Shown in pieces: positions 1-31,494 of a DNA stretch of 40,047 nt (positions within the stretch are counted from its first letter, which is position 1; the number at the start of each line of letters is the position of its first letter). The stretch spans positions 1 to 40,047 of the forward strand of contig CAIUQE010000007.1 in NCBI GenBank assembly GCA_903901225.1, written 5' to 3'. The translations under genes were made by a program, and so were the position numbers. The notes beneath the pieces were generated by a model that searched no databases, had not been told where the DNA came from, and saw nothing but the letters and a program-made list of their open reading frames with translations. The stretch is from Candidatus Omnitrophota bacterium (GTDB lineage: Bacteria; Omnitrophota; Gorgyraeia; Zapsychrales; Fredricksoniimonadaceae).

Positions 1-3000
1 CAGACATTGTCGCTGACAGGCGTGAACTGGCAGGACGTTGATGTTCTGTCGAAGGCGGGAATGAATTGGTCGGACCTGCAGGTGATGACGGCGGCGGGCG
101 TTAACTGGTCGGATATGGGTGTTATGTCGGGGATTGGCGTTAACTGGTCGGATCTGCAGGTGATGACGGACGCGGGGGTCAACTGGACGGATATTGAAAC
201 ATTGTCGAATGCGGGCGTTAATTGGTCTGATATTGATGCGCTGGCAAAGACGGGGATCAACTGGTCGGATGTGGGCGTGTTGACGAATACAGGGGTCAAT
301 TGGACGGATATTGAAACACTGTCGAATGCGGGTGTTAACTGGTCTGACATTGACGTGTTGGCAAAGACGGGGATCAATTGGTCGGATGTTGGCGTGTTGT
401 CGAATACGGGGATCAATTGGTCGGATGTTGGCGTGATGGCAGGTATCGGTGTTAATTGGGCTGACATCGATTCAATGGCGAAGACGGGGATCAACTGGTC
501 GGATGTTGGCGTGTTGTCCAGTACGGGTATCAATTGGTTAGACATAGAAAATGTTTCCAAGACCGGGATAAACTGGTCAGATCTCGATGTTCTGTCTAAA
601 ACAGGTGTGAATTGGAATGACCTTCAAACCATGACAATGACCGGGATCAACTGGTCGGATTTTGATGTTCTCACGAAAACTGGTGTTAATTGGTCGGATG
701 TGGGCGTGTTGTCGAATACGGGGATCAATTGGTCTGATATTGATGCGTTATCAAAGACAGGCATGAACTGGGCAGACATTGATGATATGGCCAAGACCGG
801 GATAAACTGGTCGGATGTGGGCGTATTGTCGAATACGGGGATCAATTGGTTTGATATTGATGTATTGGCGAAAACAGGGGTCAACTGGGCAGATATAGAT
901 GACCTTTCCAAGACAGGGATTAATTGGTCTGATCTGGGTGTCATGACGGGTGTTGGTGTGAACTGGGTTGATCTTCAGATGATGAGCGCGGCTGGTGTGA
1001 ACTGGTCGGATATGGGCGTGTTGTCAACCACAGGCGTCAACTGGTCGGATATGGACGTATTGGCGAAGACGGGGATCAATTGGTCGGATGTGGGCGTGTT
1101 ATCCAATACGGGGATCAACTGGTTGGATATCGACGCCCTTTCCAAGACAGGAGTTAATTGGGTTGACCTGCAGGTGATGACAGATGCCGGAGTTAACTGG
1201 ATAGATATTGACTTGATGACGAAGACTGGTATCAACTGGTCAGATGTGGGCGTGTTGTCGAATACCGCTATCAACTGGTCCGATGTTGACGCATTGTCGA
1301 AGACGGGTGTGAATTGGTCTGATATTGATGTCCTGGCGAAAACCGGCATTAACTGGTCCGATGTGGGTGTGTTGTCGAACACGGGTGTTAATTGGTCAGA
1401 CATTGATGTGCTGTCCAAGACGGGGATCAACTGGTTGGATATTAACGTTTTGTCGACGACGGGAATCAACTGGTCGGATGTGGGCGTGCTGTCAGAGACC
1501 GGAGTGAACTGGGCTGATATTGACACGCTGGCGAAAACGGGGATCAACTGGTCCGATATTAACGTTTTGTCGACGACGGGAATCAACTGGTCGGATGTGG
1601 GCGTGCTGTCAGAGACCGGAGTGAACTGGGCTGATATTGACACGCTGGCGAAAACGGGCGTCAATTGGTCTGATATCAACGTCATGTCGACGGCAGGTGT
1701 TAACTGGTCCGATATCGACGTATTGACGAAAGCGGGTGTTAACTGGTCGGATATCGATGTTTTGGCGAAGACGGGGATCAATTGGAGCGATATTCAGACA
1801 ATGAGCGCGGCCGGGGTTAACTGGTTTGATCTTGATGTGATGGCGAAAACCGGGGTGAATTGGTCGGATTTGCAGGTCTTGACGAATGCGGCTGTGAACT
1901 GGGATGACTTGAACCATATGACCGCGGCGGGTGTTAATTGGGAAGATCTTTATCAGATGAGCAGTCTCGGGGTGAACTGGAGCGATCTGCAGGTGATGAC
2001 GAGTGTGGGAGTGAACTGGTCAGATATGCAGGCGATGACAAATTCCGGCGTGAACTGGCAGAATATTGAAGTGATGTCTGATGCGGGCGTGAATTGGATG
2101 GATATTGAGACGATGTCTTTGGCCGGGGTCAACTGGTCAGACTGGCAGGTCCTGACCGATACCGGTGTGAACTGGTCGGATATGGGCGTGTTGTCAACCA
2201 CCGGCGTCAACTGGTCTGATATGGACGTATTGGCGAAGACGGGGATCAATTGGTCTGATGTGGGCGAACTGTCCAATATAGGGATCAACTGGCAGGATAT
2301 TGATGTCCTGGCGAAAACCGGCGTCAACTGGTCTGATCTTGCGGTGATGACGGATGCGGGTGTCAACTGGTCCGATATAGACGTATTGGCGAAGACGGGG
2401 ATCAACTGGTCGGATATGGGTGTGTTGTCCAATACAGGGATCAACTGGTCGGATGTGGGAGTGTTGTCCGACACGGGGATCAACTGGTCGGATGTGGAGG
2501 CACTGGCGAAAACGGGGATCAATTGGTCGGATGTGGGCGTGTTGTCCAACACGGGGATCAACTGGCTGGATATTGATGTCCTGGCGAAGACCGGTGTTAA
2601 CTGGTTGGACATGGATGTTCTAGCGAAGACGGGGATCAACTGGTCGGATTTGGGCGTCTTGTCCAATACGGGGATCAATTGGTTGGATATTGATGTTCTG
2701 GCGAAGACAGGGATCAACTGGTCTGATGTGGGCGTGTTATCCAACACGGGGATCAATTGGTCAGATATCGATGTTCTTTCCAAGACGGGCCTGAATTGGT
2801 CGGATCTGCAAGTGATGGCGGATGCGGGAGTGAACTGGTCAGATATCGATTCATTGTCGAAGACGGGGATCAACTGGTCGGATATCAACGTCTTATCGAA
2901 TACGGGCATCAATTGGTCGGATGTCGGAGTGATGGCCGGTACAGGCGTGAACTGGGCTGACATCGACTCAATGGCAAAGACGGGGATCAACTGGAGTGAT

Positions 3001-6000
3001 ATTCAGACCTTAAGTGCCGCCGGGATCAACTGGGCAGATGTGGATGTGCTGGCGAAAGCGGGTGTGAACTGGTCTGACTGGCAGGTGATGACAGAAGCCG
3101 GTGTGAATTGGTCTGACTGGCAGGTGTTGACGCAAACAGGCATAAACTGGTCCGACATCGGTCTTCTTTCCAATACGGGTATTAATTGGTCGGACATAGA
3201 TGTTCTCGCGAAGACGGGGATCAACTGGTCGGATATCGATGTCCTGGCGAAGACGGGGATCAACTGGTCGGATATTGATGTTCTGGCGAAGACAGGGATC
3301 AACTGGTCTGATGTGGGCGTGCTGTCCAATACGGGGATCAATTGGTCTGATATCGATGTTCTTTCCAAGACGGGCCTGAATTGGTCGGACCTGCAAGTGA
3401 TGGCAGATGCGGGAGTGAACTGGTCGGATATCGATTCATTGTCGAAGACGGGGATCAACTGGTCGGATATCAACGTCTTATCGAATACGGGCATCAATTG
3501 GTCGGATGTGGGCGTGATGGCAGATGCGGGAGTGAACTGGTCAGATATCGATTCATTGTCGAAGACGGGGATCAACTGGTCAGATATCAACGTCTTATCG
3601 AATACGGGCATTAATTGGTCGGATGTGGGCGTGCTTTCGACGACCGGCGTGAACTGGGATGATATCGACACGTTGGCGAAGACGGGCATCAACTGGTCTG
3701 ATATCAACGTCCTGTCGATGGCGGGTGTTAACTGGTCCGATATTGATGTGCTGGCGAAAGCTGGTGTTAACTGGTCGGATCTTCAGGTGATGGCAGGTAC
3801 GGGCCTTAACTGGTCGGATCTTCAGGTGATGGCAGGTACGGGCCTTAACTGGTCTGATCTTGATGTTCTGGCGAAGACCGGGATCAACTGGTCGGATGTG
3901 GGTATCCTGTCGAATACAGGGATCAACTGGATCGATATTGATTCGCTGACGAAGACAGGTATTAATTGGTCGGATGTGGGTGTCTTGTCAAATACAGGGA
4001 TCAACTGGTTGGACATTGATACATTGTCGAAGGCAGGCGTTAACTGGTCTGATTGGCAGGTGATGACCGAGGCGGGTGTGAATTGGGATGACCTGAACCA
4101 CATGAGCACGGTGGGGGTCAACTGGGAAGATCTTAACCTGATGAACAGCCTTGGGGTTAACTGGAATGATCTGCAGGTGATGACGAACGCCGGTGTGAAC
4201 TGGTCGGATATGCTGGCGATGACGAATGCGGGTGTGAATTGGCAGAATATTGAAGTTATGTCGGACGCGGGCGTGAACTGGTCGGACATTGAGATCATGT
4301 CACGGACAGGCGTCAATTGGTCTGACTGGCAGGCGATGACAGATGCGGGCGTGAACTGGTCGGATGTGGGCGTGTTGTCGGCAACAGGTGTAAATTGGGT
4401 GGACTTTAGCGTGTTGTCTGGTACAGGGATCAACTGGTCGGATGTGGGTGTCCTGTCGAACACAGGGATCAATTGGCTGGATATTGATGTCCTGGCGAAA
4501 TCCGGGATCAACTGGGCGGATGTGGGCGTGATTTCGGCGACCGGCGTGAACTGGGATGATATCGACACGTTGTCGAAAACGGGTATCAACTGGTCGGATG
4601 TGGGCGCGCTGTCCAACACGGGGATCAATTGGTCGGATATGGATGTTCTGGCAAAGACAGGTATTAACTGGTCAGACCTGCAGGTCATGAGCGACGCGGG
4701 CGTCAATTGGGCCGATATTGATGTCTTGTCGAAGTCCGGTGTCAATTGGATGGATATTGAATCACTCTCAAAGACGGGCCTTAACTGGTCGGATCTTCAG
4801 GTCATGGCCAGTGCTGGGGTGAATTGGACCGATATCGGGGTCTTGTCCGGGACAGGTATTAACTGGCAGGATATTGATGCGCTTTCAAAGACCGGCTTGA
4901 ATTGGGCTGATTTGAGCCGCATGACCGAGGCGGGCGTGAATTGGAACGACTTGCAGCAGATGTCGTCGGCAAATGTCAATTGGAGCGATTTCAGCGTCAT
5001 GACCAATGATGCGGTGAATTGGGATGATTTTGTGACATTGACCAGGCTTGCGATCAATTGGGACAACATTGATGTCATGTCCAATACTGCCGTAAACTGG
5101 GCTGACCTCAATCAAATGACAACGCGCGGGATCAATTGGGATGACCTGACGCAAATGTCGCAGTCCTCTGTTAACTGGAATGACCTTGCCCTCCTGACAG
5201 AGGCTGGCGTTAACTGGAATGACCTGACGGTGATGGGCCGCTCTGGCGTTAATTGGACGGATGTTCAGGTCATGACGGATGCAGGGGTCAACTGGTATGA
5301 CTTAGGTTCCATGTCGAATGCCGGCATTAATTGGCTTGATATTGAAACCTTTACTACAACCGGCGTCAATTGGTCGGACATCCAAACACTGAGCAGCACC
5401 GGGATCAATTGGAATGATATTTCGACATTGTCCAGCACAGGCATCAATTGGTTTGATCTGGGTGTGCTTTCTGACGCGGCGATCAATTGGACGGATTTGA
5501 ATGTTCTGTCGACATCAGGGGTAAATTGGGATGATTGGCAGTATCTTACCGGCGCAGGCATTAATTGGAGCGATCTGGGCGTTATGGCAGCGAGCGCGGT
5601 CAACTGGTCCGGGTTGCAGGTGCTTAGTCAGACTGCCGTGAACTGGGTTGATCTGCAGGGTATGACCGATGCCGCCATCAATTGGGCGGATCTGAGTGTG
5701 ATGACCACGAATGGCGTTAATTGGGATGAATTGAATGTTCTGTCAAAGTCACAGATTAATTGGGACGATTTTAGCACCATGACAATGGCTGGGGCTAATT
5801 GGGATTCTTTGCAGATGATGACAATGGCCGGGATAAATTGGAACGATTTTTCGTCGATGACCACGGATGGCCTTAATTGGGAAGATATGCAGGTGATGAC
5901 AGATGCGGGTATCAATTGGGGTAATTTGGAGGGATTGACCGGTGCGAATGTCAATTGGGCTGGTTTGGAGGGCATCACCAGTTCGGATATTAATTGGACG

Positions 6001-8067
6001 GACCTGCAGGTGATGACGGATGCGGGTGTTAACTGGTATGACCTTGAGACGATGACACAGGGCGGGATGAACTGGGATGACCTGCAAACCATGACACAGA
6101 CCGGGATCAATTGGTCTGACATGCAATCTATGACCAATATGAACATGAACTGGGAGAATTTTGCGGAAATGACCACTGTGGGGGTCAATTGGTCCAGCCT
6201 TGGCGTGATGGCCAGTTCAGGTGTGAACTGGGATGACATCGCTTCACTGACTGCAGTGGGTATCAATTGGAATGACATGGGGTTCATGACCAATGCGGGG
6301 ATCAACTGGGATGATCTTCAGGCTATCACACAAACGCAAATGAATTGGAACGACCTTCAGGTCATGACAGAAGCGGGTGTTAACTGGATGGATATTGGGC
6401 AGATGACCAGCACGGGCATTAACTGGTATGACTTTTCCACGTTGACCGGGACGGGTGTTAACTGGGATGATCTCTTAACGATGACAACAACGGGCGTTAA
6501 CTGGGAAAGTCTCAGTACCATAACTAATTCAGATGTCAATTGGGGAGATCTTGCCGTGATGGTGGGCACGGGTATCAATTGGGATGATCTTGTCACGATG
6601 TCGGACGCGGGTGTTAACTGGGCTGATATGCAGTCAATGGCGAGTTTGGGTGTGAACTGGGACAATCTTGAAATGATGACGAATGCGGGTGTTAATTGGG
6701 ATGCGTTGAATCCGTCGGGTGTTAATTGGACAAGCGTGGCCGACTTGTCGGATAATGGCATAAATTGGGGCGGTTTGGCAGACATGGTTGGTTCAGGCGT
6801 AAATTGGGGTGAAGTGGCCACGCTTACCGATGCCCAGATCAACTGGAGCGATATTCAGAACATCACAGACGCGGGGGTTAACTGGTACGATATCAGCGAC
6901 ATGAGCAATATTGGTATCAACTGGGCTGATATCCAGGCCTTCAGTACAACTGCTGTGAACTGGGAGAACATTCAGGATATCAGCACGACAGGTATCAATT
7001 GGGGAAATATTGGGGATCTTTCCACGGCCGGGATCAACTGGTTCGAGATCGATAACTTCTCTAAACAGGGATTGAACTGGGAAGATATTGGCGTCATGAC
7101 AGGTAGCGGGATCAACTGGTATAACATGGGTGATATGACATCAATGGGCATTAACTGGGCAGATATTGATACATTGACAAAATCCGCGATCAATTGGGAT
7201 GATATTGTCAAGATGTCAACGGCGACCGTTTGCTGGGATGATATTTCCAATATGACCCATGCCAATGTTAACTGGCAAAATCTTGGGGATGTCGCGAGTT
7301 CAGGTGTTAACTGGTCGGATCTGCAGGTGATGACCCAGTCCGCGATCAATTGGGGTGAGATGGATTATTTCTCTCGTAACGCGCGTTCTCTCATCAGCAA
7401 TATGCAGGCCATTTACGACAGGCTGGGAGATCCCGCTTCAACCGATACGAACACCTTGTTCGGGAAGATCAACGGTGTCATGGCCAATCTGAATAATGGG
7501 CAGATACAGCAAATACTGAATGCGTTGGGAACGACCACGGATACGGCTTCGAGCAAAACCATATTCGGCGACATCAACGGGATCATTGGTTCCGTGGGTA
7601 CCAGCACGACGGGACTTTCCGTTTTCGCTCAAATGACGGCGATACAGACATATGCCCAGAAGGGCAAGAGCAGCGCGGACGCGGCTTATACCACGGCAAA
7701 GAACATCCTGCAGGACCTTGGTGTTAATGGCGAGATACCCACGGCCTATGACAAGATCAAGGAGTTGGAAGCGTATCTCAAAGATCTGCAGCTGGCGACT
7801 TTGGCCATGGGTAATAAACAGGATGCTTCGAGCGACCTTTCCCAGCAGATCGTTGGGATGATGCAGGATATGATCAACCAGCAGATGTCGAAGTCGGGCC
7901 TGGATAAGTCCGGCCTCAAGGTTCAGGATCTTACGAAGTCACAGGCTGGAGATATGGAAAAGGTTAACGAGAAACTTGAAGAGATCGATGCCAAGATGCG
8001 CGCCATCCAGGAAGCGTTGAAGATCGACGATGTGGTCGTGAAAACCTGGTTTGAAAGCGAGGAATGA
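1..8067 (+). CDS. Giant 13-residue NW-repeat protein (5'-partial)
   Basis: The frame is open from base 1, so the true start lies upstream; the TTG at 7 is an internal Leu codon. At least 2,688 residues are visible. From base 19 to about 7,380 the protein is an unbroken series of about 189 units of 13 residues, consensus GVNWSDxxVLSxx, in which Asn-Trp is nearly invariant. The unit looks like a short helix: Asn could be the N-cap and Asp three residues later a capping-box partner, with Gly ending the helix and the following Val/Ile packing back. That structure is inferred. The last ~230 residues are not repetitive; they hold two related TxFGxING segments (near 7,455 and 7,560) and a C-terminal coiled coil. 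No known family is recognised. The stop is four bases before the next ATG, so the two genes are probably co-transcribed. Function is unknown; position suggests a link to the rotary ATPase downstream. Confidence 0.9.
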   Translation, partial: QTLSLTGVNWQDVDVLSKAGMNWSDLQVMTAAGVNWSDMGVMSGIGVNWSDLQVMTDAGVNWTDIETLSNAGVNWSDIDALAKTGINWSDVGVLTNTGVNWTDIETLSNAGVNWSDIDVLAKTGINWSDVGVLSNTGINWSDVGVMAGIGVNWADIDSMAKTGINWSDVGVLSSTGINWLDIENVSKTGINWSDLDVLSKTGVNWNDLQTMTMTGINWSDFDVLTKTGVNWSDVGVLSNTGINWSDIDALSKTGMNWADIDDMAKTGINWSDVGVLSNTGINWFDIDVLAKTGVNWADIDDLSKTGINWSDLGVMTGVGVNWVDLQMMSAAGVNWSDMGVLSTTGVNWSDMDVLAKTGINWSDVGVLSNTGINWLDIDALSKTGVNWVDLQVMTDAGVNWIDIDLMTKTGINWSDVGVLSNTAINWSDVDALSKTGVNWSDIDVLAKTGINWSDVGVLSNTGVNWSDIDVLSKTGINWLDINVLSTTGINWSDVGVLSETGVNWADIDTLAKTGINWSDINVLSTTGINWSDVGVLSETGVNWADIDTLAKTGVNWSDINVMSTAGVNWSDIDVLTKAGVNWSDIDVLAKTGINWSDIQTMSAAGVNWFDLDVMAKTGVNWSDLQVLTNAAVNWDDLNHMTAAGVNWEDLYQMSSLGVNWSDLQVMTSVGVNWSDMQAMTNSGVNWQNIEVMSDAGVNWMDIETMSLAGVNWSDWQVLTDTGVNWSDMGVLSTTGVNWSDMDVLAKTGINWSDVGELSNIGINWQDIDVLAKTGVNWSDLAVMTDAGVNWSDIDVLAKTGINWSDMGVLSNTGINWSDVGVLSDTGINWSDVEALAKTGINWSDVGVLSNTGINWLDIDVLAKTGVNWLDMDVLAKTGINWSDLGVLSNTGINWLDIDVLAKTGINWSDVGVLSNTGINWSDIDVLSKTGLNWSDLQVMADAGVNWSDIDSLSKTGINWSDINVLSNTGINWSDVGVMAGTGVNWADIDSMAKTGINWSDIQTLSAAGINWADVDVLAKAGVNWSDWQVMTEAGVNWSDWQVLTQTGINWSDIGLLSNTGINWSDIDVLAKTGINWSDIDVLAKTGINWSDIDVLAKTGINWSDVGVLSNTGINWSDIDVLSKTGLNWSDLQVMADAGVNWSDIDSLSKTGINWSDINVLSNTGINWSDVGVMADAGVNWSDIDSLSKTGINWSDINVLSNTGINWSDVGVLSTTGVNWDDIDTLAKTGINWSDINVLSMAGVNWSDIDVLAKAGVNWSDLQVMAGTGLNWSDLQVMAGTGLNWSDLDVLAKTGINWSDVGILSNTGINWIDIDSLTKTGINWSDVGVLSNTGINWLDIDTLSKAGVNWSDWQVMTEAGVNWDDLNHMSTVGVNWEDLNLMNSLGVNWNDLQVMTNAGVNWSDMLAMTNAGVNWQNIEVMSDAGVNWSDIEIMSRTGVNWSDWQAMTDAGVNWSDVGVLSATGVNWVDFSVLSGTGINWSDVGVLSNTGINWLDIDVLAKSGINWADVGVISATGVNWDDIDTLSKTGINWSDVGALSNTGINWSDMDVLAKTGINWSDLQVMSDAGVNWADIDVLSKSGVNWMDIESLSKTGLNWSDLQVMASAGVNWTDIGVLSGTGINWQDIDALSKTGLNWADLSRMTEAGVNWNDLQQMSSANVNWSDFSVMTNDAVNWDDFVTLTRLAINWDNIDVMSNTAVNWADLNQMTTRGINWDDLTQMSQSSVNWNDLALLTEAGVNWNDLTVMGRSGVNWTDVQVMTDAGVNWYDLGSMSNAGINWLDIETFTTTGVNWSDIQTLSSTGINWNDISTLSSTGINWFDLGVLSDAAINWTDLNVLSTSGVNWDDWQYLTGAGINWSDLGVMAASAVNWSGLQVLSQTAVNWVDLQGMTDAAINWADLSVMTTNGVNWDELNVLSKSQINWDDFSTMTMAGANWDSLQMMTMAGINWNDFSSMTTDGLNWEDMQVMTDAGINWGNLEGLTGANVNWAGLEGITSSDINWTDLQVMTDAGVNWYDLETMTQGGMNWDDLQTMTQTGINWSDMQSMTNMNMNWENFAEMTTVGVNWSSLGVMASSGVNWDDIASLTAVGINWNDMGFMTNAGINWDDLQAITQTQMNWNDLQVMTEAGVNWMDIGQMTSTGINWYDFSTLTGTGVNWDDLLTMTTTGVNWESLSTITNSDVNWGDLAVMVGTGINWDDLVTMSDAGVNWADMQSMASLGVNWDNLEMMTNAGVNWDALNPSGVNWTSVADLSDNGINWGGLADMVGSGVNWGEVATLTDAQINWSDIQNITDAGVNWYDISDMSNIGINWADIQAFSTTAVNWENIQDISTTGINWGNIGDLSTAGINWFEIDNFSKQGLNWEDIGVMTGSGINWYNMGDMTSMGINWADIDTLTKSAINWDDIVKMSTATVCWDDISNMTHANVNWQNLGDVASSGVNWSDLQVMTQSAINWGEMDYFSRNARSLISNMQAIYDRLGDPASTDTNTLFGKINGVMANLNNGQIQQILNALGTTTDTASSKTIFGDINGIIGSVGTSTTGLSVFAQMTAIQTYAQKGKSSADAAYTTAKNILQDLGVNGEIPTAYDKIKELEAYLKDLQLATLAMGNKQDASSDLSQQIVGMMQDMINQQMSKSGLDKSGLKVQDLTKSQAGDMEKVNEKLEEIDAKMRAIQEALKIDDVVVKTWFESEE
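1438..1658 (+). repeat. Recent 117-bp tandem duplication inside the array
   Basis: Bases 1438-1541 and 1555-1658 are identical over 104 bp at an offset of 117 bp, which is three 39-bp units. The exactness, including synonymous positions, points to a recent duplication by slippage or unequal recombination. Confidence 0.9.
2731..3636 (+). repeat. Higher-order duplication: 585-bp and 117-bp offsets
   Basis: Bases about 2731-2936 recur with only a few differences at about 3316-3521, an offset of 585 bp (15 units). The block starting at 3403 then recurs again at 3520, an offset of 117 bp (3 units). Offsets are whole multiples of 39, so the reading frame is kept. Confidence 0.85.
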
Positions 8068-9419: not shown

Positions 9420-10904
9420 ATGAGCATCAAACTGCAATATACAGAAGTCGGCATTGTCAAGGCGATCAGAGGTTGTATCGTGATCGTGACAGGGTTCAGC
9501 AATTGCATCAATGGCCAGCTGATCCATTTTGGTTACGGAACGGTCGGCATGGTTGTCGGCTTTACGGAAGAGGAAGCCCAGGTCTTAATCCTGAAAGAGG
9601 CGGACAAGATCCGCACGGGGATGGAGGCTGTGGCCTCGATCGAACCTTTGGTCACGCCCGTCGGAAAGAATTTCATTGGCCGGATCGTTAACCCTCTGGG
9701 CGATCCTCTGGATGGCCTTGGCACCATCGTGCCGGATGCCATGTTCCCGATATTCCCTGAATCACCCCCCATCCTTGACCGTCAACCCCTGAGCAAAACC
9801 CTGGAAACAGGCATCAAGGTCCTGGATGCCATGATCCCCATTGGCCGGGGCCAGCGCGAGCTTATTCTCGGCGATAAAATGACGGGCAAGACAACTTTTG
9901 TCACGGATACGATCATCAATCAAAAAGGGGCGGATGTCGTCTGTATTTATTGTTCAATAGGTAAAGCCAGGGCCTCCATGGCGAAGGTCGTGCAGCTCTT
10001 TAAAGATCATGGGTGTTTTGAATACAGCATGATCGTTTCCGCCGCGGCGTCATCGACCCCGGGCCAGCAGTATCTTTCTCCTTACGTGGCTTGCTCCCTG
10101 GGTGAGTATTTCATGAAGCAGGGGAAGGACGTATTCATCGGCTTTGACGATTTTACCAAGCATGCCTGGTGTTACCGCGAAATATCTCTCCTTTTAGGGC
10201 GTCCACCGGGACGTGATTCTTATCCGGGAGATATTTTTTATCTTCATTCAAAAATGATCGAGCGCGCGTGTTACCTGAGCAAGGATAAGGGAGCTGGATC
10301 CATGACTTTCTTTCCTATCGTCGAGATCCTGGAAGGGGACCTTACCGCGTTCGTGCCTTCCAACCTTGTTTCCATGACCGACGGGCAAATATATTTGAGT
10401 TCCCAGCTTTTCGGCGAAGGGCAGAAACCGTCGCTTGATCTCGGTCTATCGGTCTCGCGCGTCGGATCCAAGGTCCAGTGGCATGCCATCAAATCACTGT
10501 CCGGCCCGTTGCGCCTGGAGTATCTCCAGTTCAGGGAGCTCCTGCGGCTTTCAAAGCTCAAGACATCGGGACAGTCGGAGGAAATGAAACAAAAACTTAA
10601 ACGCGGGGCCGTGCTCACGGCCATCCTGCGCCAGGACAAGGATACACCGGTGTGCCAGGAAATGCAGGTTCTTATCTTTTACGCGTTCCACAAGAAGCAC
10701 ATGAATGATTATTCAACAGAACAGGTCAACCTGTTCCAGGAATCTTGTTTAGAATATACGAAGAAGAACAAGCCGGAATTGATGGCGCTCCTGCGCGAAC
10801 GTCGGAAACTTGATCCGGAGATCGAAAAGATGCTTGAAGAGGTGATCAAGGGCCTGTCGGCTGAAGTGCTGACGCGGACGAAGGTCAAGGCTGACCTGGA
10901 GTAG
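9420..10904 (+). CDS. atpA: F1-type ATPase alpha subunit, divergent
   Basis: 494 residues. The non-catalytic nucleotide-binding subunit of an F1 ring. Visible are the P-loop GDKMTGKT (K157), the YDDLSKHA-like segment FDDFTKHA, the PPGRDSYPGD stretch and the arginine-finger motif SVSRVGS. Compared with E. coli alpha, where the P-loop lysine is residue 175, this protein is about 18 residues shorter at its start: it opens almost directly on the beta-barrel (TEVGIVKAIRG). The missing piece is the N-terminal helix that normally binds subunit delta. This matches the reduced delta encoded at 11697. Distance from standard sequences suggests a specialised rotary ATPase rather than the housekeeping enzyme. 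The gene lies 17 bases after the anchored protein. Confidence 0.95.
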   Translation: MSIKLQYTEVGIVKAIRGCIVIVTGFSNCINGQLIHFGYGTVGMVVGFTEEEAQVLILKEADKIRTGMEAVASIEPLVTPVGKNFIGRIVNPLGDPLDGLGTIVPDAMFPIFPESPPILDRQPLSKTLETGIKVLDAMIPIGRGQRELILGDKMTGKTTFVTDTIINQKGADVVCIYCSIGKARASMAKVVQLFKDHGCFEYSMIVSAAASSTPGQQYLSPYVACSLGEYFMKQGKDVFIGFDDFTKHAWCYREISLLLGRPPGRDSYPGDIFYLHSKMIERACYLSKDKGAGSMTFFPIVEILEGDLTAFVPSNLVSMTDGQIYLSSQLFGEGQKPSLDLGLSVSRVGSKVQWHAIKSLSGPLRLEYLQFRELLRLSKLKTSGQSEEMKQKLKRGAVLTAILRQDKDTPVCQEMQVLIFYAFHKKHMNDYSTEQVNLFQESCLEYTKKNKPELMALLRERRKLDPEIEKMLEEVIKGLSAEVLTRTKVKADLE

Positions 10905-10919
10905 CGCTGAGGATACCTT

Positions 10920-11195
10920 ATGGCAACGGCTTATACGGGTCATTTCCGCTGCGTCATATTGAGTGCCAGGCAATTGATCTTTGAGGGTGAGGTTAACAGT
11001 GTTTTCGTGAGCGGCGACGCCGGAGAATACGAACTGCTGGCTTACCATTATCCGCTGATAGGGATCGTCGCGGGGGACCTTATCATCAACTGGGATAAGC
11101 GCGTGCCGGTCAAGGGCGGGGTCGTCAAATTCTTCGCGAATGAATGCAATATCATGATCGAGGAGAAAGAGTCAACGGCTCCGGCGCAGGGGTAA
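10920..11195 (+). CDS. atpC: F1-type ATPase epsilon subunit, beta-sandwich only
   Basis: 91 residues against about 130-140 for typical bacterial epsilon. The sequence matches the N-terminal beta-sandwich: the SARQLIFEGEV segment corresponds to the usual SAEQxxFSGxV, followed by GDAGEYELLAYHYPLIG and VKGGVVKF. The C-terminal two-helix domain, which in many bacteria inhibits ATP hydrolysis, is absent. Hydrolysis would therefore not be locked by that mechanism, which fits an ATP-driven motor but does not prove one. A GAGGA ribosome-binding site precedes the ATG. The gene sits between alpha and the c genes, an unusual place for epsilon, which normally follows beta. Confidence 0.9.
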   Translation: MATAYTGHFRCVILSARQLIFEGEVNSVFVSGDAGEYELLAYHYPLIGIVAGDLIINWDKRVPVKGGVVKFFANECNIMIEEKESTAPAQG

Positions 11196-11210: not shown

Positions 11211-11432
11211 ATGTTAGCTGAAACATTCATTATTTTAATGGTCATGTTCATCGCGGTCATGGGGCCGTCGGTCGTAATTGCCGTGCTGGGTTATGCCGTG
11301 ATCAAGGCGCTGAGCCGGAACCCGTCGGCAGCGTCAAAGATATTCATGGGCATGGCGATCATGCTGGTGTTCGTTGAGGCGATATCGATCATTTCGATCC
11401 TTATTATTTTCCAGCTTTTTTCAACAAAGTGA
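11211..11432 (+). CDS. atpE: FO-type c subunit, copy 1
   Basis: 73 residues forming a two-helix hairpin. The polar loop reads SRNPSA, equivalent to the usual ARQPE. The ion-binding carboxylate is Glu56 in helix 2 (VFVEAIS). The Gln of helix 1 and the Ser after Glu that mark sodium-binding c subunits are replaced by Ile and Ala, so proton binding is more likely. The Gly-rich packing motif of helix 1 is largely replaced by Val, Ile and Ala, so ring packing may differ from standard rings. It is followed twelve bases later by a second c-like gene. Confidence 0.9.
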   Translation: MLAETFIILMVMFIAVMGPSVVIAVLGYAVIKALSRNPSAASKIFMGMAIMLVFVEAISIISILIIFQLFSTK

Positions 11433-11444
11433 AGCGGTCCGGAC

Positions 11445-11681
11445 ATGGCGGAACATTTTCAGTACTGGAGAGAAGGATGGGCGTTCATTGCCACGATGCT
11501 TTTTATCGTCGGATCGCCTTGCGTCGCGGTCGCGGTGCTGGGGACAAAGCTGATCGATCATATCGGCCGTTTTCCCACGAAAAGCGCGCAGTTGCAGATG
11601 GGCGTTTGCATCCAGTTGCTTGTGGTCGAAATTATTTCGTTCTTGATGCTGGCGTTGTTTTTCCATGTCTTTTCTGATTAA
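11445..11681 (+). CDS. FO-type c subunit, divergent copy 2
   Basis: 78 residues with the same hairpin plan as the preceding gene: a GSPCVAVAVLG helix 1 parallel to GPSVVIAVLG of copy 1, a polar GRFPTKSAQ loop and Glu62 in helix 2 (LLVVEIIS). It also carries an N-terminal stretch rich in Trp and charged residues (residues 1-12). Both paralogs keep the carboxylate, so both could take part in ion transfer. Similarity is limited to the core, so the duplication is old. A mixed ring, as in eukaryotic V-ATPases, is possible. The start at 11445 is preferred over an overlapping ATG at 11429 in another frame because only this frame gives the c-type hairpin. Confidence 0.85.
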   Translation: MAEHFQYWREGWAFIATMLFIVGSPCVAVAVLGTKLIDHIGRFPTKSAQLQMGVCIQLLVVEIISFLMLALFFHVFSD

Positions 11682-11696
11682 TAAAGGAGCCGATAT

Positions 11697-12452
11697 ATGA
11701 CTTTCGCACTGATCATACAATTCTTGTTGCTGACCGCGATCATCTCGGGGGCGCTTATTTTCGCGTTGCACCGCGTGTTCCTTTCGAGTGTCGAAGGGGC
11801 AAAGCAGCGCCTGGAACGTGATGCTGAAGCGGCCAGGGCGCGTGAGGTGGAACTTAACAGCAAGATCAAACAGGCCAGTGAAGAACTCGCCGCGCGCAAG
11901 AAGGAGCTTGATCAGCTTGAACAGAAGATGAAGGTCGATCTTGAAGCTTCGGCGGAGAAACACCGGGAAGAGTTGGTCACCAAGGCGCGCGCTGACGCGG
12001 AAGAGATCATCACGAAAGCGCAGAACGCGGCAGATAGTATCCGGCTTGATATTGAAAAACAGATGGAGATCAGGATCATTGATCATGCCGTCAGCATCAT
12101 AGGGAGTGTCTTGACCAAACGCGCCAAGGTCGCTCTCGAGAAGGACCTTTTTGAGGAGTTTCTTGAGCAGCTCAGGAATGTGGATATGTCCAAGATCAGC
12201 CAGGATATCAAAAAGGCCGATGTGGTTACGTCCCTTGGCCTGAGTGACGCGGACCTGAAACGGGTTTCGGATGAGATTTGTGCCCGTAGCGGCAGGACTA
12301 TTGAACTGCATTCCAAAGTTGACGGGGCTCATATCGCGGGTGTTGTGATCCATTTCGGCAGTCTGCAGCTTGACGGCAGCTTGCGCACGGCGGTCAAGGA
12401 GGCGGCCACCGCGCTCAAGGCTGAAGCGGAAAAGTCGCGTCAGAAGAAGTAA
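11697..12452 (+). CDS. atpF: ATPase b-delta fusion lacking the delta N-terminal domain
   Basis: 251 residues. Residues 1-25 form the membrane anchor. A long charged coiled coil (~30-130) follows, as in subunit b of the peripheral stalk. The C-terminal part contains VDGAHIAGVVIHFGS and LDGSLR, the signature of the C-terminal domain of delta/OSCP. The six-helix N-terminal domain of delta, which grips alpha, is not present. b-delta fusions are known, for example in mycobacteria, but those keep the delta N-terminal domain. Loss here goes together with loss of the alpha N-terminal helix. A strong AAAGGAG ribosome-binding site stands ahead of the ATG. Confidence 0.88.
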   Translation: MTFALIIQFLLLTAIISGALIFALHRVFLSSVEGAKQRLERDAEAARAREVELNSKIKQASEELAARKKELDQLEQKMKVDLEASAEKHREELVTKARADAEEIITKAQNAADSIRLDIEKQMEIRIIDHAVSIIGSVLTKRAKVALEKDLFEEFLEQLRNVDMSKISQDIKKADVVTSLGLSDADLKRVSDEICARSGRTIELHSKVDGAHIAGVVIHFGSLQLDGSLRTAVKEAATALKAEAEKSRQKK

Positions 12453-12475: not shown

Positions 12476-13330
12476 ATGGGTAAGGCAAACAAGGTCAAGC
12501 GTGATTTTCTGGATGTGAGGGACCTGGTCGAACTGGTGCAGGTCCTTAAGGATATCGCGGACATGAAGTTCCATGATCTCTTTGCCAAAAGAGGGGGCTT
12601 CCAGCGTTTCGGGGAATCGTTCGCTGAATTTTTTCGTCTTCTGGAAACCGTGAATGTGCAGCATCCTTTGGTTTCCAACAGCAATGCCAATGTCTGCATT
12701 GTTGTCGTTACGACGGAAGAGGGTTTTATCGGCGACCTTAACAACAAGGTCGTGACACGCGCGCTTGAACTTCGCAATGAATATCCCAACGCGAAGTTTG
12801 TCACTCTCGGGCGCAAGGGAGTGATGAAGCTTGAAATGCTGGGGGTTAAGAGCGCAAAGACGTATGAAGACCTTGGCGACAGGAAGTTATATGACCTTGC
12901 GGTGGACCTTAAGGATTATCTGGTCAAGCAGGTCATGGATGATGTTTTCGGAAAAGTGCTGGTGGTATATCCGTGGCCCAAAGACCTTCAGACGGTCCGC
13001 GCGCGGGTCGTTAAATTGTTGCCGGCTGATTTCATTTTCCAGAGCCAGCCGCAGACCATTGAGCAGTTCACGAAGGTGATCGAGGAGTCCGATCCGCTGG
13101 ATGTTATCGGGTATCTGGCGCAATTATGGACATCGTCAAAGATTTACGAAGTCATGCTCGATACGAGTATCGCGGCTGTGGCGGCGCAGTCCCAGCAGCT
13201 GGATACAAGTTTGCTGAACGTGAAGAAAGAGGCCGGCAACGTCAGGCTTAAATGGCGCAAGGCGCGCAAAGGCGATATTGACAAAAGCCTCCGTGAAACT
13301 TTTTCGTCGAGATTGATGACCAAGCGTTGA
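12476..13330 (+). CDS. atpG: F1-type ATPase gamma subunit
   Basis: 284 residues, a normal length. The rotor shaft is recognisable from its long N- and C-terminal helices and from the central segment TTEEGFIGDLNNKV, which corresponds to the usual TSDKGLCGGLN. The C-terminal helix keeps the expected pattern of Ala, Asn and Leu followed by RKARKGDIDKSLRE, matching the YNRARQAxITxEL region. It would couple the F1 head to the c ring. It follows the b-delta gene and precedes beta, as in standard operons. An AGGGG ribosome-binding site precedes the ATG. Confidence 0.92.
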   Translation: MGKANKVKRDFLDVRDLVELVQVLKDIADMKFHDLFAKRGGFQRFGESFAEFFRLLETVNVQHPLVSNSNANVCIVVVTTEEGFIGDLNNKVVTRALELRNEYPNAKFVTLGRKGVMKLEMLGVKSAKTYEDLGDRKLYDLAVDLKDYLVKQVMDDVFGKVLVVYPWPKDLQTVRARVVKLLPADFIFQSQPQTIEQFTKVIEESDPLDVIGYLAQLWTSSKIYEVMLDTSIAAVAAQSQQLDTSLLNVKKEAGNVRLKWRKARKGDIDKSLRETFSSRLMTKR

Positions 13331-14782
<1,452 letters not shown>

Positions 14783-14784
14783 CG

Positions 14785-16509
14785 ATGTTAAAGAACATTG
14801 TCAATAAGGCCGTCGGGGATGCCCTGGTTCAGGGAGGCCTTCTTGATGAAGGAAACCTGCAGCGCTATTCCCAGGAAGCGGCCAATGCCGGTGTCAAGCT
14901 TACGGTCCATCTCGTCCGTGCCGGCGTGCTTCAGGCGCATGATGTCTTGAAAGTCCTTTCCGCCCGTTTCCACTGTGAAGTCCTGGACCTTAAAGCCGTT
15001 AACGTTGAAAAGAGCGTTATTGAGCGGGTCCCCGTAAAATTCGCCACATACTATCAGTTCCTGCCCCTGGCGATCGACCGCCAGAAAATGACCATTGCCA
15101 TCGCTGAACCGCTGGATATTTACACGCAGGATGAGATACGCGCGCTGCTCGGCCTGGAGCCGAAATTCGTTCTGGCCAGCGCGTGGGATATCGAGGAGGC
15201 CCTGAAGAAATATTACGGCCTGGCCTCGGACACGATTGACAGGATCATCACCCGGGACCCGAAGCGCTTCCGCAAAGAACGGGCCTCGGATGAGACGGGT
15301 ATTGAGGATATCGAACGCCAGAGTGAAGACCCGACGGTCACCAAACTGGTCAACCAGATCATTTTAGAGGCGTATCAGAAGCGCGCGACCGATATCCATA
15401 TTGAGCCTTATCGCAGCAGCGTGAGATTCCGCTATCGCATTGACGGCGTCCTGATCGACGCGAACCTGCCGCAGGATGCCCGGCATTTCCTGCCGGCCAT
15501 CCTTTCCAGGATCAAGATCATGGCGGAATTGAGCATCACCGAGAAGCGCAAGCCTCTCGATGGGAGCGCGGTGGTGCGGGTGGGGGAGAAAGAGCTCGAC
15601 CTGCGCGTGTCGACCATCCCGGCGCTTCATGGCGAGAGCATGGTCATCCGCCTCCTGCCGACCACGTCGGAATTGCTTAATCTCGAGAAGCTCGGGTTTA
15701 ACGCGGATAACGCGGCTAAATTCCGCGAACTTGTGCGGCGGCCCCACGGGGTTATTTTTGTTACCGGCCCGACGGGAAGTGGCAAGACGACAACGCTTTA
15801 CGCGTGCCTGAACGAGATCAACCTTCCCGGCCGCAAGATCATCACCATCGAGGATCCCGTGGAATACGAGATGGACGGGATAACCCAGATCCAGATCAAC
15901 GCGGATGTGCATTTTTCATTTGCCGACGGGTTGCGCAGCGTCCTGCGCCATGACCCCGATATCCTTATGGTGGGCGAGGTCCGAGATACGGAGACCGCCA
16001 ACATCGCCATCCGCACCGCTCTTACCGGGCATCTTGTTTTTTCATCGCTGCACACCAATGATGCCGCGAGCGCGGTCACGCGCCTGGTGGATATGGGGGT
16101 TGAGCCCTATCTGGTCGCGTCGAGCGTCCAGGCGTTTGTGGCCCAGCGCCTTGTCCGAGTGATCTGCCCCAAGTGCAAGGAAGAGGACCTGCAGCCGTTG
16201 CATGATATCCGTCAGGAGATCGCAGAGAGCGTCAAGCCGGCGGTGTCCGACAAGGTCTTGATCTTCAGGGGGCGTGGTTGCGACCATTGCAATGGTACGG
16301 GTTATTACGGCAGGACGGCTATTTATGAGATCCTTGAGCTTGACGAGCAGGTCCGTGCCGTTATCCTTGAGAAACCGAGGGCGGAAGAGATAAGAAGGAT
16401 CGCTATCGCCCGGGGCATGAAAACCTTGCGCCAGGATGGCTGGAAGAACGTGGCAAAGGGGGTCACAACTCCCGCTGAGGTCATGAATGTCACGATGAAA
16501 GAGGTTTGA
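14785..16509 (+). CDS. gspE: Type II secretion / pilus assembly ATPase GspE
   Basis: 574 residues. A hexameric cytoplasmic ATPase that powers pseudopilus assembly. The N-terminal ~150 residues form the T2SSE-N domain, followed by the ATPase core. Visible are the Walker A box GPTGSGKTTT (from residue 328), the Walker B segment ILMVGEVRD, the His-box LHTNDAASA and a zinc-binding pair CPKC (461, 464) and CDHC (499, 502). Length and all motifs match intact GspE/PilB proteins. The start follows the beta-subunit stop by three bases with no clear ribosome-binding site, so translation is probably coupled to the ATPase operon. Confidence 0.95.
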   Translation: MLKNIVNKAVGDALVQGGLLDEGNLQRYSQEAANAGVKLTVHLVRAGVLQAHDVLKVLSARFHCEVLDLKAVNVEKSVIERVPVKFATYYQFLPLAIDRQKMTIAIAEPLDIYTQDEIRALLGLEPKFVLASAWDIEEALKKYYGLASDTIDRIITRDPKRFRKERASDETGIEDIERQSEDPTVTKLVNQIILEAYQKRATDIHIEPYRSSVRFRYRIDGVLIDANLPQDARHFLPAILSRIKIMAELSITEKRKPLDGSAVVRVGEKELDLRVSTIPALHGESMVIRLLPTTSELLNLEKLGFNADNAAKFRELVRRPHGVIFVTGPTGSGKTTTLYACLNEINLPGRKIITIEDPVEYEMDGITQIQINADVHFSFADGLRSVLRHDPDILMVGEVRDTETANIAIRTALTGHLVFSSLHTNDAASAVTRLVDMGVEPYLVASSVQAFVAQRLVRVICPKCKEEDLQPLHDIRQEIAESVKPAVSDKVLIFRGRGCDHCNGTGYYGRTAIYEILELDEQVRAVILEKPRAEEIRRIAIARGMKTLRQDGWKNVAKGVTTPAEVMNVTMKEV

Positions 16510-16514
16510 AGGCC

Positions 16515-17717
16515 ATGCCGGTTTTTGTTTACAGGGCCAAGCAGGACAATGCGCAGACGGTTACGGGCGAGGTGACGGCATCGGATGTTAACGAGGCCAT
16601 TGAGCTTGTTAGCCGCCAGGGGCTTTTGCCGGTGTCTGTTGATGAAAAGACGGATCTGCCTGTTGGCCAGGCGCGCGGTGGTGCCGTGGATCCCCGCGTG
16701 GTCTTTTCTTTCACGCGCCAGCTGGTCAGCCTTTTGAATTCCGGGGTCCCTTTGCTGCAGGCCCTTGAAGTCCTTGCCCGTCAGACGCGCCAGCTATCTT
16801 TCACGATCGTTGTCAGGGATGTGATCGCCAATTTGCGTAACGGCAGGGCGTTCTCGGCGTGTATCAGGGAACATCCTGCGGCCTTCTCGGATATTTACGT
16901 GGCGCTTGTTAGGGCGGGCGAGGAGAGCGGGCGCCTGAAGGAACTCCTGGCTGGATTGGTCGTGTATCATCGCAAGCAGGAGGAAATTACATCCAGGGTC
17001 CGGGGCGCGCTTGTTTATCCGTGTTTTATGCTCGCGGTAGGCCTTGCGACGGTTGTGTTCATCCTGAGTTTTGTGATGCCGAAGATCGCTGTCCTGTTCG
17101 ACGGGATGCGCACGACATTGCCCTGGCCCACGCAGGTGGTCATGGCGTTGAGCCGGATCCTGCGCAACGCGTGGCCCATTGTTTTTGTGTTGATATTCCT
17201 GGGTGTTCTGGCGTCCCGTTTTCTGGCCCAGGCTCCGTTGATCCGCCGCCGCATCAAAGTCCTTTTTACGGGCCTTCCCCTGGTCAGGGATTTTGCGATC
17301 AAGACTGACCTGGAACGGTTTTCCCGCACGCTAGGACTTTTGCTGGAGAGCGGACTGCCCATCCTATCCGCCCTTGAAGCAACGATCCAGGTCCTCGATC
17401 ATGAGCCGTTGCGCCAGGAACTTCTATTGGCTCAGGAGAGGGTGACCGGTGGCGCTTCTTTCGGCGAGTGCCTGCGGGAGTCAGCGAATATCCCGGACAT
17501 TGTCGCCCAGCTGATCATTGTCGGCGAGGAATCGGGGAACCTTCCCGGGGCTTTGCGCGATATTGCCGACACCTATGAACAGGAGGTCGCCGAGACGACT
17601 AAGGCCGTGACCACGCTGCTTGAGCCATTGCTTATCCTTTTCGTCGGCCTTGTGGTAGGGTTTATTGTTTTTGCCATGCTCTTGCCTATTTTTCAGATGG
17701 ACATGTTCGCCCGGTGA
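16515..17717 (+). CDS. gspF: Type II secretion inner-membrane protein GspF
   Basis: 400 residues. The polytopic inner-membrane platform that works with GspE. It opens with PVFVYRAKQDNAQTVTGEV, the usual GspF/PilC start, followed by two T2SSF helical domains (~70-190 and ~270-395) and transmembrane segments near 165-190, 215-235 and 375-400. I chose ATG 16515 over TTG 16506 because the longer form overlaps the gspE stop and adds only three residues; GAAGG before the ATG can serve as a ribosome-binding site. Confidence 0.93.
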   Translation: MPVFVYRAKQDNAQTVTGEVTASDVNEAIELVSRQGLLPVSVDEKTDLPVGQARGGAVDPRVVFSFTRQLVSLLNSGVPLLQALEVLARQTRQLSFTIVVRDVIANLRNGRAFSACIREHPAAFSDIYVALVRAGEESGRLKELLAGLVVYHRKQEEITSRVRGALVYPCFMLAVGLATVVFILSFVMPKIAVLFDGMRTTLPWPTQVVMALSRILRNAWPIVFVLIFLGVLASRFLAQAPLIRRRIKVLFTGLPLVRDFAIKTDLERFSRTLGLLLESGLPILSALEATIQVLDHEPLRQELLLAQERVTGGASFGECLRESANIPDIVAQLIIVGEESGNLPGALRDIADTYEQEVAETTKAVTTLLEPLLILFVGLVVGFIVFAMLLPIFQMDMFAR

Positions 17718-17723
17718 TCCCTT

Positions 17724-18554
17724 ATGAGATTTAAATTCGCGGTGATCTTTGCCAGCGCCTGTTCCTTGATTATTTATTTCGCCCCTTTGGCCTTTGCCGC
17801 TGAGCCTGGAAGTCCGTTCCTCGAGTCCAGCAGCGATCATTTCCGGGTGCGCTTCTCAATGGAGGCTGAGCGCGACACGGCCCAGTCGGTTTTGCGTCAG
17901 GCCGAGGCGTATTACATCAAGATCGCGGAAGACATCGGTTACAGCCGTTACGAGGATTTCTGGACGTGGGATCGTCGCGTCGTCATCATGTTGTACCCGG
18001 ACCAGTACGCTTATGCCAGGTTTACGGGGAGCCCTTCGTGGTCAAAAGGATTCGCGAGCCGGGATACGCGGGTTTTCAAAGAACACGCCATTGTTTCTTA
18101 TGACGGGCAGCAGAATTTTCTTGATGAAGTTTTGCCGCACGAGATCGCCCACCTGATGTTATGGGATTATATCGGTGCCGGCTCAACGTCGAGAATGCCG
18201 GTCTGGTTCGAGGAGGGCGTGGCCCAGCTTGAGGAGAAGGAAAAGTCGGAGAAAGTTTTTGAGGCGATGCGACCCCTTGTTCTGCGCCGCGGGCATATCC
18301 CTTTCTCATCTTTCGGCGGCATGACGGTCACCGGGGAGGGCGATCCTCAAAAAGTTTCTCTTTTTTACGCTCAAAGCCTCTCAATTGTGCTATTTTTAAT
18401 ACAAAAGTACGGCAAAGATTCATTTTACCGCCTTTGCGCGGAATTGCGCAGTGGCAGTTCTTTTGAAGTTGCCCTGGATCGCGCGTATCCTTCGGTCTTC
18501 GGGTCTTTCGACACGGTAGAGAGCCGGTGGGTGCGTTATTTCGATGAACAGTAA
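17724..18554 (+). CDS. Secreted gluzincin-like (MA clan) peptidase
   Basis: 276 residues. Residues 1-25 are a signal peptide ending LAFAA. A zinc-site motif HEIAH occupies residues 139-143, and WFEEG with Glu163/164 lies about 20 residues later, matching the HExxH...E arrangement of the peptidase MA-like group. The zinc ligands and the catalytic Glu are all present, so activity is plausible; substrate is unknown. It sits between gspF and gspG, where type II secretion operons do not normally carry a peptidase. It could process pseudopilins, an exported substrate or the cell wall. It begins seven bases after gspF. Confidence 0.8.
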   Translation: MRFKFAVIFASACSLIIYFAPLAFAAEPGSPFLESSSDHFRVRFSMEAERDTAQSVLRQAEAYYIKIAEDIGYSRYEDFWTWDRRVVIMLYPDQYAYARFTGSPSWSKGFASRDTRVFKEHAIVSYDGQQNFLDEVLPHEIAHLMLWDYIGAGSTSRMPVWFEEGVAQLEEKEKSEKVFEAMRPLVLRRGHIPFSSFGGMTVTGEGDPQKVSLFYAQSLSIVLFLIQKYGKDSFYRLCAELRSGSSFEVALDRAYPSVFGSFDTVESRWVRYFDEQ

Positions 18555-18574: not shown

Positions 18575-18988
18575 ATGTTGTTTGAAAAAACCAGGGGTTT
18601 TACCCTTATCGAGATCATGCTCGTTGTCATCATCATCGGGGCTTTGGCGGCGATCATTGTCCCGAATTTTGGCGGACGCTCCGAACAGGCAAAGATCGCG
18701 GTGGCCAAAGCGGATATTAGCAATATCGCGACGGCCCTGAAGCTTTACGAACTGGACAACGGCGTTCTCCCGTCGACGGCCCAGGGGCTTTTGGCCCTCA
18801 GGGAAAGGGCGGCGTCAAGTCCGGCCCCGAAGAACTGGAATGGCCCTTATCTTGAAAAGGATACGATCGACCCCTGGGGCGATCCGTATGTGTACGCCTC
18901 TCCCGGGACCCACCGTTCGGATTACGATCTTTCCTCCAAAGGAAAGGACGTCAGTTCTGCCGACGATGATATTGTCAACTGGCAGTGA
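18575..18988 (+). CDS. gspG: Major pseudopilin GspG
   Basis: 137 residues. A short basic leader ends at Gly9, then FTLIEIMLVV with Glu at mature position 5, the type IV prepilin cleavage and methylation signature. The C-terminal part has the GspG pattern: GLLALRE, then GPYLEKDTIDPWGDPYVY and DLSSKGKD, the latter in the region that binds calcium in known GspG proteins. It is the expected main pseudopilus subunit. A strong ribosome-binding site (CAGGAGG) precedes the ATG. Confidence 0.95.
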   Translation: MLFEKTRGFTLIEIMLVVIIIGALAAIIVPNFGGRSEQAKIAVAKADISNIATALKLYELDNGVLPSTAQGLLALRERAASSPAPKNWNGPYLEKDTIDPWGDPYVYASPGTHRSDYDLSSKGKDVSSADDDIVNWQ

Positions 18989-19415
18989 CCGCGCGCGGCG
19001 CCGCCTGACGCGGGGGATCACTTTCATTGAGGTGATGCTCACCGTTGTTGTCCTTTCGGCAGGGCTTGTCGCCATATACCGTTCGTTTTTCTCCGCCATC
19101 AATTACCTCGACCATCTTTCCACCCGCCTTTACGCGCACAACCTGATGGAGAACCGTATTGCCACTATTGAGAGGGATTTTCGTTCACTCAAGGATTTTG
19201 ACATCGGGGTATTTTCCGAAGATGCTCTCATCAATAACAGGACGGTCACATTCCACTATGCCGTGAATTTGAAGCCCGTCGGGACTTTGCTTTCCGTCTT
19301 TGAGCTTGAGATCGTTCTTTCCTGGCAGGAACATGGCCGTCCGGCCAGCCTCTCACGGACGGCCTATTTTTCCGGGATCACCGCCTTGACGGCTCCGCCG
19401 GGAAAGGGGGCCTGA
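18966..19415 (+). CDS. gspI: Minor pseudopilin, GspI-like
   Basis: 149 residues. A 17-residue basic leader (five Arg) precedes the cleavage site RG/ITFIEVMLTVVV, with Glu at mature position 5. The frame is open from 18840, but the region upstream of 18966 is only gspG read in another frame; ATG 18966, or TTG 18972, gives a normal leader. It overlaps the end of gspG by 23 bases. Position after gspG and before a GspJ-like gene supports GspI; a GspH identity is less likely. No separate gspH is seen. Confidence 0.8.
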   Translation: MILSTGSDRARRRLTRGITFIEVMLTVVVLSAGLVAIYRSFFSAINYLDHLSTRLYAHNLMENRIATIERDFRSLKDFDIGVFSEDALINNRTVTFHYAVNLKPVGTLLSVFELEIVLSWQEHGRPASLSRTAYFSGITALTAPPGKGA

Positions 19416-20011: not shown

Positions 20012-20012
20012 C

Positions 20013-21073: not shown

Positions 21074-21096
21074 GCAACTATCAAAGGTTGGAGACA

Positions 21097-22572: not shown

Positions 22573-22581
22573 GGAGATACC

Positions 22582-28043: not shown

Positions 28044-28080
28044 CTTATAAAATCGTTTGGAACGTTTTAAAACGACTTTG
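28044..28080 (-). terminator. Possible weak terminator after the STT3-like gene
   Basis: On the - strand AAAGTCGTTT and AAACGATTTT can pair at 9 of 10 positions, overlap the stop codon and end in an AT-rich stretch. The stem is AT-rich and the U-run is short, so termination may be partial. Confidence 0.3.
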
Positions 28081-30565: not shown

Positions 30566-30575
30566 AGCGTTCACT

Positions 30576-31421: not shown

Positions 31422-31494
31422 TCTTTTTACAGGTATGTGTGCCTGTTTTCCAAAAGAAAATTTTCATTATTTTCCGGCCCCAGGGAGACTTGAC

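Follow-up and report, generated by a model that had tools for sequence, protein, structure and literature searches.

The window, that is, the whole stretch of 40,047 nucleotides analyzed here (contig C7 of a Candidatus Omnitrophota genome), opens inside a repeat gene, which the contig edge at base 1 cuts within its array. Frame 1 is open from that base to a stop at 8067 (2,688 amino acids), and positions 19-7380 hold 189 units of 13 residues, 188 built around Asn-Trp and one around Cys-Trp. Spacing between successive Asn-Trp pairs is exactly 13 in 185 of 187 cases; the two odd spacings are one of 10 and one of 26, the latter caused by the Cys-Trp unit. An earlier note on this DNA had placed about 189 units at these coordinates, and both the frame and our unit count agree with it. 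The array is followed by a C-terminal domain that lacks a transmembrane helix and recurs in most loci whose 3' end can be seen, and then by the genes listed in Table 1.

Table 1. Features of the repeat, ATPase, and secretion genes in the window (positions in nucleotides).
Feature	Position	Strand	Remarks
3' part of the Asn-Trp array, 189 units	1..7380	+	first whole unit at 19; open at contig edge
C-terminal domain of the giant protein, about 228 aa, coiled-coil-like	7381..8067	+	ends KTWFESEE
p8071, putative membrane anchor, 443 aa	8071..9402	+	signal peptide; C-terminal transmembrane helix ~400-418; short basic tail
F1 alpha	9420..10904	+	TIGR00962 521 bits, cut-off 484; model match from position 21
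epsilon, beta-sandwich domain only	10920..11195	+	PF02823
c subunit c1 with ion-binding Glu	11211..11432	+	PF00137
second c-like subunit c2 with Glu	11445..11681	+	no family match; compared with c-like hairpins of relatives
b/delta fusion: one N-terminal transmembrane helix, OSCP domain	11697..12452	+	
gamma	12476..13330	+	
F1 beta, P-loop GGAGCGKT and catalytic Glu GERIREGN intact	13340..14782	+	TIGR01039 525 bits, cut-off 463
gspE-type assembly ATPase	14785..16509	+	
gspF	16506..17717	+	
peptidase-MA-like protein, conserved at this position	17724..18554	+	
gspG major pseudopilin	18575..18988	+	TIGR01710 above cut-off
two further prepilin-like minor pseudopilins	18840..20011	+	
gspK-like minor pseudopilin	19890..21032	+	
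gspL/PilM-N-like and gspM/PilO-like platform proteins	21088..23223	+	

Among the 188 Asn-Trp units of the window, 159 are distinct as protein and 184 as DNA, which points to an old, diverged array and not to an assembly artefact. The invariant Asn is written as AAC in 107 units and as AAT in 78; since both codons are used and the units have diverged in DNA, the constraint acts on the protein. Trp makes up 7.3% of the residues in the frame. The array is the 3' part of a larger, motor-linked gene, beyond what the reader behind the earlier note could see. Only one other contig of this genome, C33, bears the repeat. It too breaks off inside an array and carries the 5' part of the gene as a frame of 3,056 amino acids, which starts with a signal peptide, continues with about 300 residues that have no Pfam match, and then runs through 208 units until the contig stops. 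The end of C33 (GVNWTDV) and the start of the window (QTLSLTG) together form one regular unit, in register, and in the relative G114 (JADFZK010000004.1) the whole repeat gene lies on a single contig, encoding 10,972 amino acids with 757 Asn-Trp pairs. Given this junction and the unbroken locus of G114, C33 and C7 are most likely one locus, broken by assembly within the repeat. The number of units differs widely between genomes.

The order of genes at the locus is gspC-gspD-TPR-SUMF1-SUMF1-giant-membrane anchor-F-type ATPase without a-gspE-F-G. Upstream of the repeat gene, C33 carries gspC, the gspD secretin, a TPR protein, and two SUMF1/FGE-like proteins (this tandem pair lies at 11055-14300 of C33, locus L024). 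In G114, one contig holds gspC, gspD, TPR, SUMF1, SUMF1, the repeat gene, p8071, alpha, epsilon, c1, c2, b/delta, gamma, beta, gspE, gspF, the peptidase-MA protein, gspG, gspL, and gspM. At 29 loci, the 3' end of the repeat gene can be seen together with 1.5 kb or more of what follows, and 27 of these have p8071 and the ATPase downstream; the exceptions, L048 and L061, have unrelated neighbors and no ATPase beside the repeat gene. These two are diverged arrays in which many units read Asn-Phe instead of Asn-Trp. The giant is immediately preceded by SUMF1-like genes in 20 of the 22 loci that show its 5' end, and gspD is present wherever the flank suffices, except in L080. Further along the window, two large secreted-looking proteins without a Pfam match (31435-33843 and 34798-37692, + strand) have in common an N-terminal region of 340 residues with 53% identity, and a PhdYefM/PIN toxin-antitoxin pair (33980-34671) lies between them.

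The secretion genes are of type II: GspC, GspD, GspE, GspF, GspG, and GspK are all present, the first two on C33. GspG scores over its NCBIfam cut-off, and GspD, GspE, and GspK score below theirs yet are matched as such. We considered a type-4a pilus and rejected it, since GspC, GspG, and GspK argue for a type II system instead. Omnitrophota giants near type II secretion genes are reportedly described in a preprint on giant genes.

A scan of 84,980 species genomes for the repeat found 66 loci, almost all of them in genomes named Omnitrophota. The other names are "bacterium 8_bin.41", taken as G195, which belongs to the order of the window's genome, and two contigs under 5 kb; L050 and L084, in such short contigs of other-named MAGs, look like binning errors. 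Within the phylum, 55 of 384 genomes have the repeat, and we consider the family essentially confined to Omnitrophota. A viral origin was rejected because viral contigs contained no relative of the repeat. The window's genome falls in the same genus as G116 (L028), and by ATPase alpha the nearest named locus is that of Ki2-D4_bin-0675 (97% identity).

The 66 arrays yielded 8,549 in-register units, 7,025 of them distinct, and 98% of their Asn-Trp spacings are a multiple of 13, figures by which a chance origin of the regularity can be excluded. The window consensus is G(88%)-V/I(93%)-N-W-S(48%)-D(88%)-I/L/V-x-V-L/M-S/T-x-T/A, and that across all arrays is G[IV]NWxDIxVLSxA, with Trp at 100%, Asn at 99%, Gly at 83%, and Asp at 80%. 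The Asn and Trp figures were taken over the 7,025 distinct units, in line with the strong selection on the unit that the earlier note had proposed. Slightly more than half of the window units (52%) read N-W-S/T, a possible N-glycosylation sequon, and the window also encodes an STT3/PglB-like oligosaccharyltransferase (28067-30601, - strand; PF02516, E 1.7e-15). N-glycosylation as the reason for the Asn was rejected, because the N-W-S/T share ranges from 10% to 89% among arrays with the Asn constant.

We found nothing convincing for the unit in Pfam, NCBIfam, PHROGs, or PDB sequences, which bears out the earlier proposal that it lies outside known repeat families. The units have no Pfam or NCBIfam profile match to TPR, Sel1, LRR, ankyrin, pentapeptide, or HEAT repeats, and the PDB sequence search returned no relative, its sole match being an epitope-tag 13-mer artefact. 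The closest candidate was PF25533 (Lysostaphin_N), likewise made of 13-residue repeats. Against this model, the whole protein scores 250 bits summed over nine stretches, the best single stretch reaching 31.5 (cut-off, 60 bits). The score of a 312-residue piece went from 65.2 to 60.3 bits after Asn-Trp had been replaced by Ser-Ala, and the match vanished once the unit positions were permuted. We therefore rejected a Lysostaphin_N identity: the match is independent of Asn-Trp and reflects the period and the hydrophobic pattern. Judged by sequence comparison, the Asn-Trp repeat is a family undescribed in the libraries searched.

Covariation within the unit is strongest at positions 8-12, 6-9, 9-12, and 5-9, i.e., at i,i+3/i+4. 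At positions 8-12, opposite charges are enriched (Arg-Glu 4.1-fold, Lys-Glu 3.8-fold, and Glu-Lys 2.6-fold) and two positive charges are depleted (0.30). The i,i+3/i+4 covariation and this charge pairing support a helix over residues 5-13, with the Asn as N-cap and the Asp as capping box, and they fit the N-x-x-D capping box and the single helix per unit suggested in the earlier note. Between units, i and i+2 are alike at positions 6, 8, 9, and 12 (period 2, Z 12-19), with no period-2 peak in the synonymous third bases of Asn3, Asp6, and Gly1; the i/i+2 coupling lies on the diagonal and the i/i+1 coupling off it. This suggests that the structure repeats every 26 residues, over two 13-mers instead of one, and fits helix hairpins of that length stacked along an axis. 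A mere history of duplication as the source of the even-lag similarity is opposed by the flat synonymous sites, and old even-numbered duplications may remain. A global model with two unit types (A/B) was also rejected, since neighboring blocks share the phase in only 263 of 423 cases and the alternation is thus local. Periods near 3 or 6 units are weak except at position 13 (Z about 5).

Of the stacked solenoid envisaged in the earlier note, covariation supports the helices and the i/i+2 similarity, but structure prediction does not show the stack. That note had named prediction of the fold as a check and predicted disorder as a result against it. We ran AlphaFold2 twice, on 18 units with 65 rows and on 12 units with 98 rows (even/odd phased), and obtained no confident fold (pLDDT, 43.9 and 44.5; pTM, 0.21-0.31), a low confidence that agrees partly with disorder.

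Directly downstream of the giant, p8071 contains a pair of homologous modules, at residues ~33-186 and ~200-353, and hhalign matches its two halves with a probability of 99.9 (E 1.2e-33). Where Omnitrophota lack Asn-Trp repeats, another giant ORF ends in the second of these modules, followed by the transmembrane helix and the tail. In each of the nine loci we examined, such a fused giant, whose whole frame spans 2,353 to 11,907 amino acids where measured, is the gene just before the same kind of a-less ATPase and gspE. The fusion of the anchor to the C terminus of other giants is gene-fusion evidence that giant and anchor are probably a physical pair, with the C terminus of the giant placed in the inner membrane beside the motor. 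A p8071 match lies within about 6 kb of all 24 non-canonical gamma genes in 20 genomes, a figure due partly to selection, since these genomes were picked among p8071-positive ones and only the extra copies are independent. Two or three non-canonical gamma genes, each near its own p8071-type anchor, occur in G144 (C1, C9, and C10), G116 (C14 and C61), and G087 (C1 and C9). In G355 (~90% complete), repeats are present and p8071 is absent among the matches listed.

In a maximum-likelihood tree of ATPase alpha, the repeat-linked rows form one clade (32 rows, 98/94; one of them, L109, counted as repeat-linked by its C-terminal domain only) and the fused-giant rows another (9 rows, 97/93). Because the tree splits by giant type though family f4 holds both kinds, the phylogeny indicates that each type of giant is inherited together with its type of motor. 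The order of the ATPase genes is alpha-epsilon-c-c-b/delta-gamma-beta with Asn-Trp giants and epsilon-c-b/delta-alpha-gamma-beta with fused giants (L096-L105). Of the two c subunits, c1 is of the ordinary type and c2 is diverged. The c2 subunit was seen in many repeat-linked loci and in none of the fused-giant loci, and a mixed c ring of c1 and c2 is possible.

Compared with canonical F1Fo, this ATPase has homologues of alpha, beta, gamma, epsilon, c, b, and delta and keeps the catalytic motifs, as read from the sequence (the P-loops, GERIREGN in beta, and VSRVGS in alpha), but it has no a subunit, its epsilon lacks the C-terminal helices, and its gene order differs. Alpha also starts about 20 residues late, without the N-terminal stretch that normally binds delta. 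The a subunit forms the ion channel of ATP synthase. None is encoded in the ATPase cluster of the window, and the single a gene of this genome (PF00119) lies in the canonical operon on C2. Among the 20 genomes, a genes occur only beside canonical gamma genes, and most of these genomes also have a canonical operon with a. Six genomes (G187, G158, G135, G176, G118, and G231; 91-98% complete) encode this kind of ATPase and no a subunit anywhere; for this reason, an ion-driven synthase role seems hardly possible in these six species. The c subunits retain the ion-binding Glu, a residue one would not expect to be conserved in the absence of an ion flow.

Rotary ATPases outside respiration have been described before. 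Omnitrophota were reported to carry a non-respiratory, "symbiotic" F-type ATPase beside type-4a pilus genes and, treated apart from these loci, common giant ORFs whose function was unclear (Seymour et al. 2023, PMC10066038). The available portions of that paper contain no repeat motif and no statement of giant and ATPase as one operon or with a common anchor. As far as those portions go, the loci are alike in phylum, in the non-respiratory F-type ATPase, and in the pilus/secretion-type neighbors, whereas here the giant lies inside the ATPase operon, giant and ATPase have an anchor in common, and the machinery is of type II (GspC, GspG, and GspK). Agreement with the "symbiotic" clade, as it appears there, is one of phylum, co-location, and non-canonical branch.

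Mycoplasmas have Type 2 (gliding, G1-ATPase) and Type 3 (F1-like X0, MIB-MIP) ATPases (PMC3369863, PMC11864180, PMC12994834), which drive gliding or are required by the MIB-MIP antibody-cleavage system (PMC12994834, PMC11864180). Like these, the Omnitrophota system is an extra F1-type motor without an a subunit and with a tie to large surface proteins; unlike them, it keeps c1, c2, and b/delta and is accompanied by type II secretion genes. The mycoplasma clusters include a protein with a signal peptide, two globular domains, and C-terminal transmembrane helices (PMC12994834), and p8071, with its signal peptide, two domains, and C-terminal transmembrane helix, resembles it in a comparison of architecture only. 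The ATPase cluster of the window has no long multi-transmembrane ORF and hence no 12-transmembrane X0 protein, and the alpha and beta subunits missed the mycoplasma NCBIfam cut-offs (MMOB1660, 390.7 of 600; MMOB1670, 399.2 of 850; MSC_0619, 284 of 520; MSC_0618, 369.8 of 570).

We regard place as the most informative property of the array: the giant is tied genetically, and probably physically, to an a-less motor and to type II secretion. We lean toward reading the locus as an inner-membrane-tethered giant surface fiber coupled to an F1-type motor, which would move or tension it. The array would be the shaft of a giant envelope protein exported by Sec, as the signal peptide on the C33 part suggests, and tethered to the inner membrane by p8071. 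Each unit would probably be a short Asn-capped α-helix, with pairs of units as the structural repeat, and about 400 to 800 units could then make a very long rod or spring. The F1-type ATPase, with its c ring and b/delta stalk and no a, would sit at the anchor. By analogy with the mycoplasma F1-like ATPases, its ATP hydrolysis would most likely move or tension the giant in adhesion, gliding, or prey capture, and passage of the giant or its partners across the outer membrane would most likely fall to the type II secretion genes.

The fiber might instead be inert: the array would then be a flexible or partly disordered stretch that passively spaces an N-terminal adhesin, its exact unit being of little importance except for solubility and length. 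The very low confidence of both AlphaFold2 runs and the wide variation of unit number between genomes would suit such a spacer. We nonetheless hold it to be quite improbable, given the near invariance of Asn and Trp over the distinct units, the helix-type covariation with salt bridges, and a 26-residue period that is absent from the synonymous sites of invariant residues. The motor, for its part, might power the export or assembly of the giant and do nothing mechanical afterwards. Type II secretion genes stand on both sides of the ATPase, exporting a chain that can reach 11,000 residues is a demanding task, and F1-type ATPases are kin of the FliI/SctN export ATPases. Yet GspE is already there as a secretion ATPase, the c subunits and b/delta stalk that are kept would be needless for a soluble export ATPase, and the giants would be anchored beside the motor after export; we think this account unlikely.

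An ordinary ion pump or ATP synthase that borrows the canonical a subunit, with the giant next to it through operon hitch-hiking, would explain why alpha and beta pass the curated ATP synthase cut-offs and why the c subunits keep their Glu, and a canonical operon from which a could come is present in most of the 20 genomes. It is hard to reconcile with the six nearly complete genomes that have this ATPase and no a anywhere, or with an anchor that is fused to giants and co-inherited with the ATPase, and we consider it very improbable. We infer that movement of the giant by the motor is the best-supported mechanism. A wider reading, which we put forward tentatively and would not call probable, is that the a-less rotary ATPase works across the phylum as a mechanical motor, driven by ATP, for giant surface fibers that can be exchanged for one another, of which Asn-Trp arrays (up to about 760 units) would be one type and anchor-fused giants another.

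Omnitrophota encode some of the largest proteins known. Linking one such giant to an a-less F-type ATPase via a common anchor makes a testable machine of a previously unexplained ORF, and about 8,500 units of an undescribed Asn-Trp repeat family are now in hand. If the proposed coupling is true, Omnitrophota, like mycoplasmas, would have turned rotary ATPases into motors that work mechanically on surface proteins, and the intermediate parts, the c ring and b/delta, would still be present in the Omnitrophota system.
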